Of a stretch of DNA of 64,000 nucleotides, positions 15,312-56,031 are shown one piece after another. The stretch covers positions 372,001 to 436,000 of the forward strand of contig JAPLCB010000004.1 in the NCBI GenBank assembly GCA_026392455.1, in the 5' to 3' direction. The number at the start of each line of letters is the position of its first letter. Within the stretch, counting starts at the first letter, position 1. The DNA comes from Propionibacteriales bacterium. GTDB lineage: Bacteria > Actinomycetota > Actinomycetes > Propionibacteriales > Nocardioidaceae. The position numbers and the translations under genes are program-made. The notes under the pieces are model-generated. The model was not told the DNA's origin. It worked only from the letters and a program-made list of their open reading frames with translations, and searched no databases.

Positions 15312-15433
15312 CGACGCCGACCGGGCGCAGATGTCCCGCTGTACGACGCCGACCGGGCACTGATGTCCCCACTCGGTGAGACATCTGTGCCCGGTCGGCG
15401 TACTTGGACGAGACATGTGTGCCCGGTCGGTGT
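15312..15433. repeat. Four-unit palindromic intergenic element, copy A
   Basis: Two forward units (15314-15337 and 15346-15369) and two inverted units (15378-15401 and 15410-15433) share the pattern ACGCCGACCGGGC-n4-GATGTCCC. Forward units are 32 bp apart and inverted units are 32 bp apart. Together they fill the gap between the serA-like stop and the stop of the convergent P450. The inner pair (cores GCACTG/GCACAG) and outer pair (GCGCAG/GCACAC) pair imperfectly, so this copy has decayed relative to copy B at 55914-56031. Either transcript could fold into a long hairpin, so a bidirectional terminator role is possible. Confidence 0.9.
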
Positions 15434-16737
15434 CAGTGCGGGCCGAGGCGCGCCGGAAGCACGTCGAACCCGCGCAGGATCCTGGTCGTACGACGCCGTG
15501 CCCCCGGCGTGAGGCTCAGCTCCGGGAACCGCTCGTAGAGCGTCCGGAGGCCGACCTCGCCCTCCATCCGGGCCAGTGAGGCTCCGAGGCAGTAGTGCCG
15601 TCCGGCGGAGAAGGCGAGGTGGTCGCCGGCGTTGGCGCGTCCGACGTCGAACGTGTCCGGGTCGGTGAAGACGTCGGGGTCCCGGTTGGCCCCGGCCAGC
15701 AGGGTCGAGACCAGGGCGCCTTCCGGGACCGGCACCCCGGCGACGGTGGTGTCCCGGACGGCCATCCGTCCGGTCAGCAGCACCGGCGGGTCGATCCGCA
15801 GCACCTCGTCGACGGCGTTCGGCCAGAGCTCCGGTTCGGTGCGCAGCCGGGCCAGCTGGTCGGGGTGCTGGTCGAAGAGCGCAATGGCATTGCCGAGCAG
15901 GTTCACGGTGGTCTCGAACCCGGCAGCCAGGACCAGCCCGGCCGTCGCCTTCAGCTCGGCGTCGTTCAACCCCACGCCGTCCTCGGTCGCGGCCACCAGC
16001 TTGCTCATCAGGTTGTCGCCGGGCCGGGCGCGCAGGCGCTCGAGGTGCTCGGTCAGCCAGGCGTCGAAGTCCAGCAGCGCCGCCTCGACGTCGCGGAACG
16101 ACGACCACGAGAGACCGAGGTCCAGGCTCGGGGCCGCTGCTGTACCGAAACGCAGCACCCGCTCCTGGTCCTCCGGCTCGACCCCCAGGACCTCGGTGAT
16201 CACGGTCAGCGGCAGCCGGGCGCAGTAGGCCGAGACCAGCTCGGCCGGTTGGGCCGGATCGAGCCCGTCGAGCAGGGAGTTCGCGATCTCCTCGGTCCGG
16301 CCGCGGAGCTGCTCGACCGCCCGGACCGTGAATACCCGGGTGACCAGCTTGCGGTAGCGGGTGTGGTCGGGCGGCTCGGTGACCAGCAGCGACGGTGGCG
16401 TCAGCGGGCCGAGCATCGCCACGTCCGACCAGGCCCGCAGCTTCTCGAACGGTCCGCCGGCGCGGACGATCCCCGTCCGGAAGTCGGGGCTGGTCAGGAT
16501 CTCCTTCACGGTGGACTGGGTCGCCGTGGTGAACGAGAACCGGCCTCGGTGCAGGGGTCCCGACGCCCGGGCGGCATCGAACAGGTCGACCAGCTCGGCG
16601 GTCTCGACGTTGCCCGACTCGACGATCAGCCGACCAGGGAGGTCGCCCTTCTTCGCGGCGTACGCCATCACACCGCGGGGGAGCGCATGGTCCAGGCTCC
16701 AGCGGACCCGTTGCTTGAGGACGTTGCGTCTGGTCAT
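15433..16737 (-). CDS. Cytochrome P450
   Basis: 434 residues. I-helix AAGFETTVNLLGN, K-helix EVLR in VDEVLRIDPPV, and heme loop FSAGRHYCLGASLARME with Cys383. The order of motifs and length are those of soluble class I P450s needing separate ferredoxin partners, none of which is encoded nearby. The N-terminus has a basic segment (MTRRNVLKQRVRWSLDH) rather than a membrane anchor. It starts 52 bp after the CsoR-like gene on the same strand and might be read through from that operon. Only distantly similar to the P450 at 8779. Substrate unknown. Confidence 0.92.
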   Translation of the reverse strand: MTRRNVLKQRVRWSLDHALPRGVMAYAAKKGDLPGRLIVESGNVETAELVDLFDAARASGPLHRGRFSFTTATQSTVKEILTSPDFRTGIVRAGGPFEKLRAWSDVAMLGPLTPPSLLVTEPPDHTRYRKLVTRVFTVRAVEQLRGRTEEIANSLLDGLDPAQPAELVSAYCARLPLTVITEVLGVEPEDQERVLRFGTAAAPSLDLGLSWSSFRDVEAALLDFDAWLTEHLERLRARPGDNLMSKLVAATEDGVGLNDAELKATAGLVLAAGFETTVNLLGNAIALFDQHPDQLARLRTEPELWPNAVDEVLRIDPPVLLTGRMAVRDTTVAGVPVPEGALVSTLLAGANRDPDVFTDPDTFDVGRANAGDHLAFSAGRHYCLGASLARMEGEVGLRTLYERFPELSLTPGARRRTTRILRGFDVLPARLGPH

Positions 16738-16789
16738 GGCTCCATCTTGCCTGCCCGGCGGAACCTGGTCGTCCTCCCGCGGTAGGAGG

Positions 16790-17050
16790 TCAGGCCAGCG
16801 AGAGGAAGAGCTTCTCCATCTTCTTCACGTCGAGGCTCTCGGTACCGCCCTCGGTGATGCACTGCTGGAGCCCGGTGGCGACGATCGCGAACCCGGCCTT
16901 GTCCAGCGCCTTGGAAACGGCGGCGAGCTGGGTCACCACGTCCTCGCACTCGCGGCCTTCCTCGAGCATCCGGACCACGCCGGCGAGCTGGCCCTGTGCT
17001 CGTTTGATCCGGTTCACCACGGGCTTCATCGCATCCGGGTCCAGCTGCAT
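16790..17050 (-). CDS. CsoR/CstR/FrmR-family transcriptional repressor (CstR-like, lacks the Cu-ligand His)
   Basis: 86 residues from the ATG at 17050, an all-helical DUF156 repressor ([18 protein letters not shown]). The two conserved cysteines are C35 and C64, spaced 29 as in CsoR and CstR. The position four residues before the second Cys, His in copper-sensing CsoR, is Gly60 here. Loss of that His is a feature of persulfide-sensing CstR rather than copper sensing, so reactive sulfur or another thiol stress is the better guess. The gene follows DUF302 by 1 bp in a thioredoxin operon whose promoter carries a CsoR-type operator, implying autoregulation. Confidence 0.85.
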
Positions 17051-17051
17051 C

Positions 17052-54449: not shown

Positions 54450-54499
54450 GACCCCACCATGCCACCCGCCCGGTCAGCGGCAGTCGGTAGGCTTCGAGC

Positions 54500-55912
54500 G
54501 TGAGCGATTTCGATGTAGTAGTCGTAGGTGCCGGCCCCGGTGGATATGTAGCAGCTATCCGCGCCTCCCAGCTGGGCCTGAAGGCCGCTGTGGTGGAGTC
54601 GAAGTACTGGGGAGGTGTCTGCCTCAACGTCGGCTGCATCCCGTCGAAGGCGCTCCTGAAGAACGCCGAGCTCGCGCACACGTTGACGCACGAGAAGGAG
54701 AAGTACGGCATCGAGGGCGACGCCACGATGGCCTTCGGACCGACGCACGCCCGCAGCCGCGCCGTCTCCGACGGGATCGTCAAGGGCGTCCACTTCCTGA
54801 TGAAGAAGAACAAGATCACCGAGATTGACGGCTGGGCGACGTTCACCGGCCCGCTGAGCAGCGGTGAGAAGGCCCTGGAGGTCACGTCCGCGGACGGGTC
54901 CACCAGGACCGTGACTGCCGACAAGGTCATCATCGCCACCGGGGCGAAGGTCCGCCTGGTGCCTGGTGTGGAGCTCTCCCAGAACGTGGTGACCTACGAG
55001 GAGCAGATCCTCGACAGCAACCTGCCGGCCTCGATCATCATCGGCGGCTCGGGCGCCATCGGCGTCGAGTTCGCGTACGTGCTGAAGAACTTCGGGGTCG
55101 ACGTCACCATCGTCGAGTTCCTCGACCGGATCGTCCCGACCGAGGACGCCGAGGTCTCCAAGGAGCTGCTCAAGCACTACAAGAAGCTCGGCATCAACAT
55201 CCTCACCTCGACCGCGGTCAAGTCCGTCGAGGACACCGGCGATGGCGTCAAGGTCACTGTGGCTCCGGCCGCCGGCGGCGACGAGCAGGTGCTCGAGGCC
55301 GGCAAGTTCCTGGCTGCGTTCGGCTTCGCGCCGCGCCTGGACGGGTACGGCCTGGAGGCCACCGGGGTCGCGACCACCGAGCGCGGTGCGATCGCGGTCG
55401 ACGAGCGTGGTCGTACCAACGTGGACGGCGTCTACGCGATCGGCGACGTGACCGGCAAGCTGATGCTGGCGCACACCGCTGAGGCCATGGGCATCGTCGC
55501 TGCCGAGACGATGGCCGGCGCCGAGACGATGGAGATCGACTTCGACATGATCCCGCGGGCGACCTACTGCCAGCCGCAGATCGCGTCGTTCGGGTACACC
55601 GAGGCGCAGGCCAAGGAGAAGGGGTACGACGTCAAGGTCGCGAAGTTCCCGTTCTCCGCCAACGGCAAGGCGATGGGGCTCGGCGAGCCGGTCGGTTTCG
55701 TGAAGGTCATCGCCGACGCCCAGTACAACGAGATCCTCGGCGCCCACCTGATCGGCCCGGACGTCACCGAGCTGCTGCCGGTGCTGACGCTGGCCCAGCA
55801 GTGGGACCTGACCGCCGACGAGGTCGGCCGCAACGTCTTCGCCCACCCGACGCTGTCCGAGGCCGTCAAGGAAGCCATCCACGGCATCGCCGGCCACATG
55901 ATCAACCTGTAG
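54500..55912 (+). CDS. lpdA: Dihydrolipoyl dehydrogenase (E3), copy 1
   Basis: 470 residues. FAD motif [16 protein letters not shown] at 7-22, redox disulfide C41-x4-C46 in [16 protein letters not shown] motif [14 protein letters not shown] and the catalytic His-Glu in [12 protein letters not shown]. Close to mycobacterial LpdC, which serves PDH, ODH and peroxynitrite-reductase complexes. GTG start. Its stop is followed immediately by repeat element B. Confidence 0.96.
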
Positions 55913-55913
55913 C

Positions 55914-56031
55914 ACTCGACCGGGCGCAGATGTCCCGCTCCAGAACGCCGACCGGGCTCGGATGTCCCACGTACGTGGGACATCCGAGCCCGGTCGGCGC
56001 GTATCAGTGGGACATCTGCGCCCGGTCGGCG
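55914..56031. repeat. Four-unit palindromic intergenic element, copy B (perfect 54-bp inner palindrome)
   Basis: Same architecture as copy A at 15312: forward units 55914-55936 and 55945-55968, inverted units 55977-55999 and 56009-56031, each pair at a 32-bp period. The inner pair plus ACGTACGT centre forms a flawless palindrome from 55946 to 55999. The outer pair (GCGCAG/CTGCGC cores) is also exactly complementary, so the two arms differ in core sequence but each matches its own partner. It abuts both stop codons (lpdA and sucB). Confidence 0.95.

Follow-up and report, generated by a model that had tools for sequence, protein, structure and literature searches.

Helically phased inverted arrays between gene ends in a Propionibacteriales genome and their probable AbiEi-like/Vsr-like nuclease partner

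The window (the whole 64,000-nucleotide stretch of Propionibacteriales DNA that was analyzed) contained two four-unit repeat arrays, each lying between a pair of convergent genes. Array 1 was bounded by a D-isomer-specific 2-hydroxyacid dehydrogenase gene (14118-15311, + strand), the stop codon of which ended at 15311, and by a cytochrome P450 gene (15433-16737, - strand), the stop codon of which began at 15433 and abutted the array. Its + arm comprised units at 15314-15337 and 15346-15369, and its - arm those at 15378-15401 and 15410-15433. Array 2 abutted the stop codons of a dihydrolipoyl dehydrogenase (lpdA)-like gene (54500-55912, + strand) and a 2-oxoacid dehydrogenase E2 (sucB)-like gene (56033-57769, - strand), at 55912 and 56033, respectively, and contained two + units (55913-55936 and 55945-55968) and two - units (55977-56000 and 56009-56032). 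All eight units matched a 24-bp motif, ACGCCGACCGGGCNNNGATGTCCC, with an internal gap of 3 nt, and the start-to-start step was 32 bp in both arrays, including across the turn from + to - units. Genes were called with a purpose-made scorer. The first-pass annotation had described two copies of two forward units facing two inverted ones at a 32-bp period, placed between convergent stop codons, and the unit and gene coordinates confirmed both statements. On the other hand, its internal gap of four nucleotides was wrong, as the four-nucleotide pattern gave five chance-level matches in the window and no true unit, whereas the three-nucleotide pattern, at up to three mismatches, gave 13 matches, eight of which were the array units (mean of the window shuffles 3.65; 0 of 100 shuffles reached 13).

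The genome to which the window belongs (G000) contained 93 strict units in 30 clusters, and the reversed-pattern control found none; therefore, the proviso that only two copies might exist in the genome did not hold. Among 24 genomes of the genus, G000 and one other carried this array family. Unit bases 6, 7, 10-12, and 24 were invariant in 100 G000 units, partly owing to selection because the units were found by pattern, while the spacers were free. Omission of the contig-edge array L039 left 29 arrays for classification, of which 16 were located between convergent genes and 13 were not called convergent; the convergent share was 10 of 76 among the remaining intergenic pairs of these loci and 5 of 34 among those in the window. 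Furthermore, the distance to an array edge was between -3 and +2 nt for 26 of 38 nearby gene ends. The 8-nt spacers agreed within one arm at 7.0 of 8 positions in G000 and 6.0 in the related genome G019, but between arrays at only 3.3 and 3.6, respectively, no better than expected from composition (3.4 and 3.6). Because spacers agree within arms but not between arrays, the arrays are not copies of a single complete element, and a MITE or insertion sequence with homologous internal sequence was rejected. No target-site duplication was recognized by eye in the G000/G019 junctions, and no exact two-unit array of the window type was found in viral contigs or in a named genome collection from which the window's genome and its near relatives may be absent.

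G000 and G019 had three type-A sites in common. The 27 G000 arrays at unshared sites yielded 24 queries, of which 21 were located in G019 (both flanks aligned in 14); these 21 sites carried type A at none and type B at two. At seven of the 21, including that of window array 2, the left neighbor differed or was unaligned; for window array 1, the site was not found in G019. The small number of common sites could reflect loss rather than gain of arrays.

Both carrier genomes had one array that enclosed a gene encoding a fusion of an AbiEi-like domain and a Vsr-like nuclease. The G000 gene was located outside the window, between two arrays (locus L049, contig C6, about 444.7-445.9 kb). The nuclease was modeled with AlphaFold2 (pLDDT 95.5), and Foldseek matched the model to AbiEi (6y8q, E 2.8e-4, probability 1.00) and to Vsr (1vsr and 1cw0), the latter with probabilities of 0.85 and 0.89 but weak E values of 0.32 and 0.54. 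The profile AbiEi_4 matched 50 of 71 family members at E 0.01, and PADLOC AbiEi models also matched, although the Pfam matches fell partly below curated cut-offs; NCBIfam gave no match for two proteins. A weak profile match (E 0.21) was obtained to the mobile-intron endonuclease 3r3p, which we take to be I-Bth0305I of the EDxHD group. Residues D244, E255, D257, H262, and D271 were kept in at least 90% of the 71 sequences. In fold, as judged from the Foldseek probabilities, and in its conserved acidic and histidine residues, the protein agrees with Vsr/PD-(D/E)XK nucleases, and its nuclease activity is predicted. The neighbors were a class II tRNA synthetase, a type III pantothenate kinase, and a QRPTase at L049, and RbpA and a 6-phosphogluconolactonase family protein at L164; none of these five scanned neighbors was an AbiEii nucleotidyltransferase toxin gene. 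The nuclease had a dN of 0.33 and a dS of 0.92, compared with 0.05-0.14 and 0.41-0.56 for four neighbors. Three distant G000 paralogues had no arrays. Matches to the nuclease at E 1e-30 or better were present in 147 of the 296 genomes in the class. Phages and plasmids were rejected as carriers: the matches, from six plasmid records and one phage, were all partial (28-41% identity).

The association between nuclease and repeat recurred in other actinobacteria. From 110 nuclease loci, four with a flank shorter than 250 nt and 13 duplicates were removed, and the 350 nt upstream of the gene were compared with the 350 nt downstream. An inverted repeat scoring above all 186 shuffles flanked the nuclease at 78 of the 93 distinct loci, as against 0 of 102 control genes and 2 of 61 distal windows; the other 15 loci had none above the threshold. 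Within the 78, L111 had a 79-nt repeat that lacked units and may be unrelated, and the downstream flank of L102 was measured from an internal stop. The flanking repeats were mostly phased tandem arrays whose unit sequences differed between loci. Units were then read solely from nuclease flanks and searched in the genomes. Those of the G003 nuclease occurred in 97 copies in G003, 16 in G010, and at most three in each of the other 22 genomes; those of G012/G017 in 63 copies in G012, 39 in G017, and at most two in each of the other 22; and those of the second nuclease of G019 in 48 copies in G019 and at most two in each of the other 23. Reversed-pattern controls gave 0 or 1 in carrier genomes and at most three in any genome. 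Nuclease-flank units of other families gave 85, 99, and 112 copies (control 0), with L252, which has a short flank, left out of the 15 non-family loci. Some unit pairs in another family faced outward (e.g., G251:C2:35406/35432). Covariation between residues and bases, calculated for 48 of the 61 loci that gave a unit (of 93), was diffuse and not focused on the wHTH. In this covariation set, 277 inward and 10 outward copies were counted, a biased figure because units were chosen by their recurrence in the inward orientation. Taken as sequence patterns, these results make it very probable that such nucleases are partnered with dispersed repeat families of their own.

The remark in the first-pass annotation that 32 bp is close to three helical turns proved to be the key. 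Both the periods and the arm spacing were helically phased. Tandem periods exceeding the maximum of the shuffles were detected in 138 of 186 nuclease flanks, compared with 5 of 122 distal flanks and 10 of 204 control-gene flanks, and these periods were 21-22 bp (50 flanks), 31-32 bp (72), 42 bp (4), 53 bp (1), 64-66 bp (4), and other values (7). The arm-to-arm spacing of 37 type-A arrays was phased at 10.4-10.6 bp (R 0.83), a value reached by 0 of 10,000 jitters; exclusion of spacings of 29-33 bp left 19 arrays with an R of 0.76, again reached by 0 of 10,000. This spacing test was a repeat with hits of at most four mismatches, as an earlier run had extended arms with weaker hits, and its p values are optimistic because the arrays compared are partly related. 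The 11 type-B spacings, obtained from 46 of the 48 unit positions of the second G019 nuclease, were 21, 31 (six), 52, 53, 53, and 63. Given periods of mainly 21-22 and 31-32 bp and arm gaps phased at about 10.5 bp, the most likely reading is that the nuclease binds the units as duplex DNA, from one side of the helix, and that they do not act as RNA hairpins.

A palindrome as the functional unit, in line with the palindromic element of the first-pass annotation, was not supported: the 24-bp unit is not itself palindromic, and in a permutation test the two opposite arms of an array resembled each other no more closely than arms taken from different arrays did (p 0.23 and 0.98). That the arrays are plain bidirectional RNA-hairpin terminators or stabilizers of mRNA 3' ends is very improbable. 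Such a role is consistent with the stop-to-stop convergent placement, with the very stable predicted folds of both window arrays (-92 to -115 kcal/mol, z -11 to -16), with the ordinary hairpin that replaces an array at some G019 junctions, and with the innermost units of G000, which alone were matched slightly better than random (p 0.02). However, it does not account for arms that pair no better than at random, for opposite-arm spacers that do not match, or for the absence of a T-run after a GC stem (0 at both window sites) and of any Rfam match within the window, and it leaves the helical phasing and the nuclease pairing without explanation. A second alternative, that the arrays serve the host as operator or insulator sites of a domesticated DNA-binding protein (nucleoid-type, or a roadblock terminator between convergent genes), with a regulatory or defensive nuclease domain and no spread of arrays, is unlikely but deserves more weight. 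The phasing, the invariant unit bases beside free spacers, the convergent excess, and the closeness of arrays to gene ends speak for it, yet most array sites differ between the two related genomes, 13 of the 29 arrays were not called convergent, and the conservation of the nuclease residues suggests that cutting matters. A homing-type selfish cassette, in which the nuclease cuts cassette-free alleles, the adjoining arrays are its own operators, and the dispersed arrays are scars left by former cassettes after loss of the gene, is improbable. The 3r3p match, the nuclease dS in excess of that of its neighbors, and the opposite orientations of the nuclease gene at one shared site (15 versus 5 loci) agree with it, but an inter-arm gap of at least 60 nt was present in just 5 of 40 two-arm arrays, two of which hold the nuclease gene. 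In the remaining three gaps, tblastn found no nuclease remnant, and one of them contained a YqeY-like ORF.

The favored reading, which is more likely than not to be correct, is that the arrays are helically phased duplex binding sites of the AbiEi-like/Vsr-like nuclease encoded outside the window, and that this nuclease drives their spread or replacement. Direct binding of the units as duplex DNA is likely; that the nuclease drives the spread or conversion of arrays is nearly, but not quite, an even proposition. The basis is the pairing of repeat and nuclease, the inward two-arm layout, the phasing, the catalytic-type residues, the differing sites, and the faster divergence of the nuclease, all observed by sequence. 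In this mechanism, the AbiEi-like domain would bind each 24-bp unit, the phased spacing would align consecutive monomers along one face of the helix, and two assemblies would meet head-on where the array turns. Nicking or cutting by the nuclease at arrays or target sites would follow, and repair templated by another array would replace the short DNA between gene ends with an array. Arrays would persist mainly right after stop codons, a position in which they are least damaging and may in addition keep convergent transcription units apart. More tentatively, this would be a widespread actinobacterial AbiEi-Vsr system in which the nuclease assembles on its own phased inverted arrays and writes them between gene ends by cutting and templated repair, that is, a trans-acting homing of a non-coding repeat, independent of RAYT-REP in origin. 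In the accessible text of the open-access papers searched, no nuclease of this kind was described together with flanking or dispersed repeats, and a term search of the RepRanger article (PMC12306157) gave no mention of Nocardioid, endonuclease, or RAYT.

No other partnership between a bacterial enzyme and dispersed intergenic repeats is as well known as RAYT-REP. If the proposed mechanism is true, the arrays would represent a second such partnership, with an unrelated nuclease and with duplex DNA instead of hairpins; why bacteria keep dispersed repeats would become testable by comparison, and one kind of repeat found where genes converge in these genomes would be explained. It would also propose a DNA target for the many proteins that carry the name AbiEi/DUF559, and the many natural protein-site pairs would provide a basis for working out a recognition code.

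The resemblance to a REP-like element suggested in the first-pass annotation stood in part: the arrays are genome-wide, dispersed, associated with gene ends, and probably have a partner enzyme that is encoded beyond the window, but neither a RAYT-type partner nor a palindromic functional unit was found. In REP/REPIN elements with RAYT, the REP-associated tyrosine transposase (Nunvar et al. 2010, PMC2817692; PMC8049555), inverted repeat copies flank the enzyme gene, repeats are dispersed between genes, enzyme-repeat pairs are genome-specific, the enzyme outpaces its neighbors in evolution, and repeat abundance tracks the presence of the cognate enzyme. To that extent the arrays are alike, with inverted repeats flanking the nuclease gene, dispersed intergenic repeats in genome-specific pairs, a nuclease that diverges faster than its neighbors, and cognate units abundant only where that enzyme type is present. 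In contrast, their partner is an AbiEi-like/Vsr-like nuclease rather than a Y1 transposase; the search for a RAYT-like transposase recommended earlier found the Y1 (IS200/IS605-like) tyrosine transposase PF01797, at E 0.001, in none of the 24 genus genomes (controls positive in 5 of 14). Moreover, the array unit is non-palindromic, the arms are tandem and helix-phased, and arm-to-arm pairing is not conserved. We infer by analogy that the array system may work as RAYT-REP does, but through an enzyme of unrelated type. Binding of AbiEi to two, and of Rv2827c to four, inverted repeats of 23 bp is described in PMC7319586, a length close to that of the 24-bp unit, and the nuclease model matches AbiEi of this type IV toxin-antitoxin system (AbiE). 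Unlike AbiEi, however, the AbiEi-like domain is fused to a nuclease, no toxin gene was present among the five neighbors at two loci, and the candidate sites are dispersed genome-wide and not just in its own promoter. The Vsr-like domain is shared with Vsr and Vsr-like homing endonucleases, as judged from Foldseek probability and the weak 3r3p match, whereas here it belongs to a free-standing gene between arrays and is joined to an AbiEi-like domain.

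Each of the two arrays in the window consists of four ACGCCGACCGGGCNNNGATGTCCC units with a start-to-start step of 32 bp, the turn included. The two forward and two reverse units described in the first-pass annotation are present in both copies, and the internal gap is 3 nt rather than the 4 nt given there. A whole-genome count showed that the unit is not limited to these copies: G000, the genome of the window (3.55 Mb, 11 contigs; the window is G000:C3:372001-436000), contained 93 strict units, with none for the reversed-pattern control, and these formed 30 clusters when counted from the match list. 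The surrounding DNA was retrieved for the 28 clusters beyond the window. Across 100 G000 units gathered by pattern, bases 6, 7, 10-12, and 24 were invariant and position 8 was usually C or G; within the core, variation was greatest at base 14. The two window copies are ordinary members of a dispersed array family, here called type A. A stricter type-A pattern was found 81 times in G000, 68 times in a second genome of the genus (G019), once in G010, and never in the remaining 21 of the 24 genus genomes; single matches occurred in seven other genomes among the 98 searched (own, genus, family, and order). In a set of 50 arrays with at least two units (27 from G000 and 23 from G019), all but one of the 169 steps within an arm, i.e., a run of same-orientation units, measured 32 bp. 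Both arms were present in 40 arrays, always in the order + before -, and arms were longer in G019.

Placement between convergent genes held for 16 of 29 G000 arrays (one contig-edge array excluded); 10 lay between tandem and three between divergent genes. At the tandem-classed array L040, gene calling may have missed a convergent gene. Comparison gene pairs with gaps >40 nt were convergent in 10/76 cases in the array loci and 5/34 in the window. Of 38 gene ends located ≤30 nt from an array edge, 26 fell at -3 to +2 nt, and in four the outermost unit itself supplied the TGA stop codon. The array at L032:4041-4176 lies directly 3' of the end of a tRNA-Arg gene, not of a protein gene.

A RAYT-like transposase, previously suggested as a candidate partner, was sought in the 24 genus genomes and none was found. 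Instead, the arrays at L049 (G000) and L075 (G019), which are syntenic to each other, both enclose a gene of 945 nt. Its product matched DUF559 above the curated cut-off, AbiEi_4 and MTES_1575 below it, and the PADLOC AbiEi models; among 71 homologues, Pfam matches (E 0.01) were to MTES_1575 (53), AbiEi_4 (50), and DUF559 (22). The AlphaFold2 model of homologue L138 (pLDDT 95.5, pTM 0.91) resembled AbiEi (6y8q) with an E of 2.8e-4 and a query TM of 0.27, so the likeness is domain-wise and not whole-protein. Its resemblance to Vsr endonuclease had a probability of 0.85-0.89, the stronger measure, and E values of 0.32 and 0.54. Catalytic-type residues were kept in at least 90% of the 71 sequences, and the protein is a predicted AbiEi-Vsr-like nuclease. 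Between G000 and G019 the nuclease had dN 0.33 and dS 0.92, compared with dN 0.05-0.14 and dS 0.41-0.56 for four neighbour genes. An AbiE toxin-antitoxin identity was rejected at the two loci whose neighbours were scanned.

We could show a partnership of the nuclease gene with dispersed, helically phased arrays. The homologue set combined 30 genus loci with the best 80 from named genomes (by title mostly Nocardioides, Marmoricola, and other Nocardioidaceae, also Microlunatus and Leekyejoonella), leaving 93 after removal of short or duplicate loci. At 78 of the 93 nuclease loci, the two flanks of the gene share an inverted repeat that scored above every shuffle, against 0/102 for control genes of the same loci and 2/61 for distal windows. 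The unit varies between nuclease genes, often with a GCCGA[C/G]nnG[G/T]C core and a variable second half. Searches for dispersed copies were seeded solely with units from nuclease flanks. The G003 unit occurred 97 times in G003, 16 in G010, and ≤3 in others; that of G012/G017 occurred 63 and 39 times, respectively, and ≤2 in others. The unit beside the second G019 nuclease (type B) had 48 copies in G019 and ≤2 in others; thus, that genome contains two nucleases and two separate repeat families. Reversed-pattern controls for these units gave ≤3 per genome. A second G000 homologue (L256; G000:C11, about 96.2-97.1 kb) has inverted arrays on both sides with a 22-bp period and a CGTTGAGTGGGGC-like unit, which had no copies beyond chance in the window. 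No arrays were found beside three more distant G000 homologues. A distant homologue at L111:972-2232 is flanked by a 79-nt inverted repeat that contains no tandem units and may belong to an unrelated element.

Homologues at E 1e-30 or better were present in 147 of 296 genomes of the class, and 12 of 14 non-family loci with usable flanks carried a flanking inverted repeat; TGATCATGCA was common to eight non-family loci. GTGATCATGCACG reached 85, 99, and 112 copies in three non-family genomes, 2, 0, and 0 in another three, where the units diverge outside the core, and none in G000 and G019, with a reversed control of 0 in all eight genomes. The listed GTGATCATGCACG pairs mostly faced inward, and some outward. 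Many genomes of genus g38 (family f7) hold at least seven AbiEi-Vsr homologues each.

The arrays could act as RNA hairpins, given their stable fold, or as duplex DNA. A tandem period exceeded the shuffle maximum in 138/186 nuclease flanks, 5/122 distal flanks, and 10/204 control-gene flanks. These periods were 21-22 bp (50), 31-32 (72), 42 (4), 53 (1), 64-66 (4), and other (7), the main ones being multiples of the helical turn. Arm-to-arm spacing was phased at about 10.5 bp (37 arrays) and remained so once the 29-33 class was removed (n=19, R 0.76, reached by 0/10,000 jitters), with p values that are optimistic because some arrays are related; type-B spacings (n=11) were 21, 31, 52, 53, and 63. 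The two arms of an array did not match each other beyond random (p 0.23 and 0.98), the innermost G000 units alone reaching p 0.02, and opposite-arm spacers agreed at 2.8 and 3.1 of 8 positions, lower than between other arrays. No T-run terminator was found at the two window sites. Because of the unmatched arms, disagreeing spacers, and helical phasing, the arrays are best seen as duplex DNA elements and the fold as a by-product. AbiEi-type proteins are described as binding 23-bp inverted repeats (PMC7319586), near the 24-bp unit length here, and we infer that the homologue studied here binds its own unit.

Type-A sites common to G000 and G019 numbered three. At 21 further G000 sites located in G019 (both flanks aligned at 14), type A was found at none, the hits with 3 to 4 mismatches being type-B units. 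Type B occupied the same place in two; in one of these (L033 and L203) the position is exact, with an identical pair of stop codons on either side. Some G019 junctions that correspond to G000 arrays (L207, L209, L215, L199) carry a different repeat, around CTCGACAAGCTCGACGACCGGG; several repeat families thus occur at such junctions. At L205, the site of G000 array L048, three copies of a ~100-nt repeat that has its own inverted repeat fill the junction. Spacers agreed within an arm at 7.0/8 (G000) and 6.0/8 (G019) positions and between arrays at 3.3 and 3.6, which we read as arms having probably grown by tandem duplication, without copying of whole elements. The + arms of dispersed array L058 and nuclease-side L049 have the same two spacers (GCCCAGGT), a possible trace of copying; this spacer also occurs in some G019 arrays. 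The gap between arms was ≥60 nt in five of 40 two-armed arrays; two contained the nuclease gene, and no nuclease remnant was found in the other three. In one of these three, at L078:4226-4624 (G019), type-A arms enclose a YqeY-like ORF in the nuclease's stead. The nuclease gene lay between convergent genes at 52 of 64 named loci. At one site shared by about 20 loci (L122 to L172 range; the adjoining 6-phosphogluconolactonase-family gene and rbpA were identified at L164 alone), its orientation was 15 versus 5, a pattern that flipping or reinsertion of the DNA between the inverted arms would produce. The observations agree with an element subject to turnover and perhaps to conversion of sites.

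No prior report of this partnership was found in the open-access literature searched. It works like that of RAYT transposases and their REP repeats. On the other hand, the arrays are not members of the RAYT-REP system, because they lack the RAYT's transposase and the palindrome of REP.
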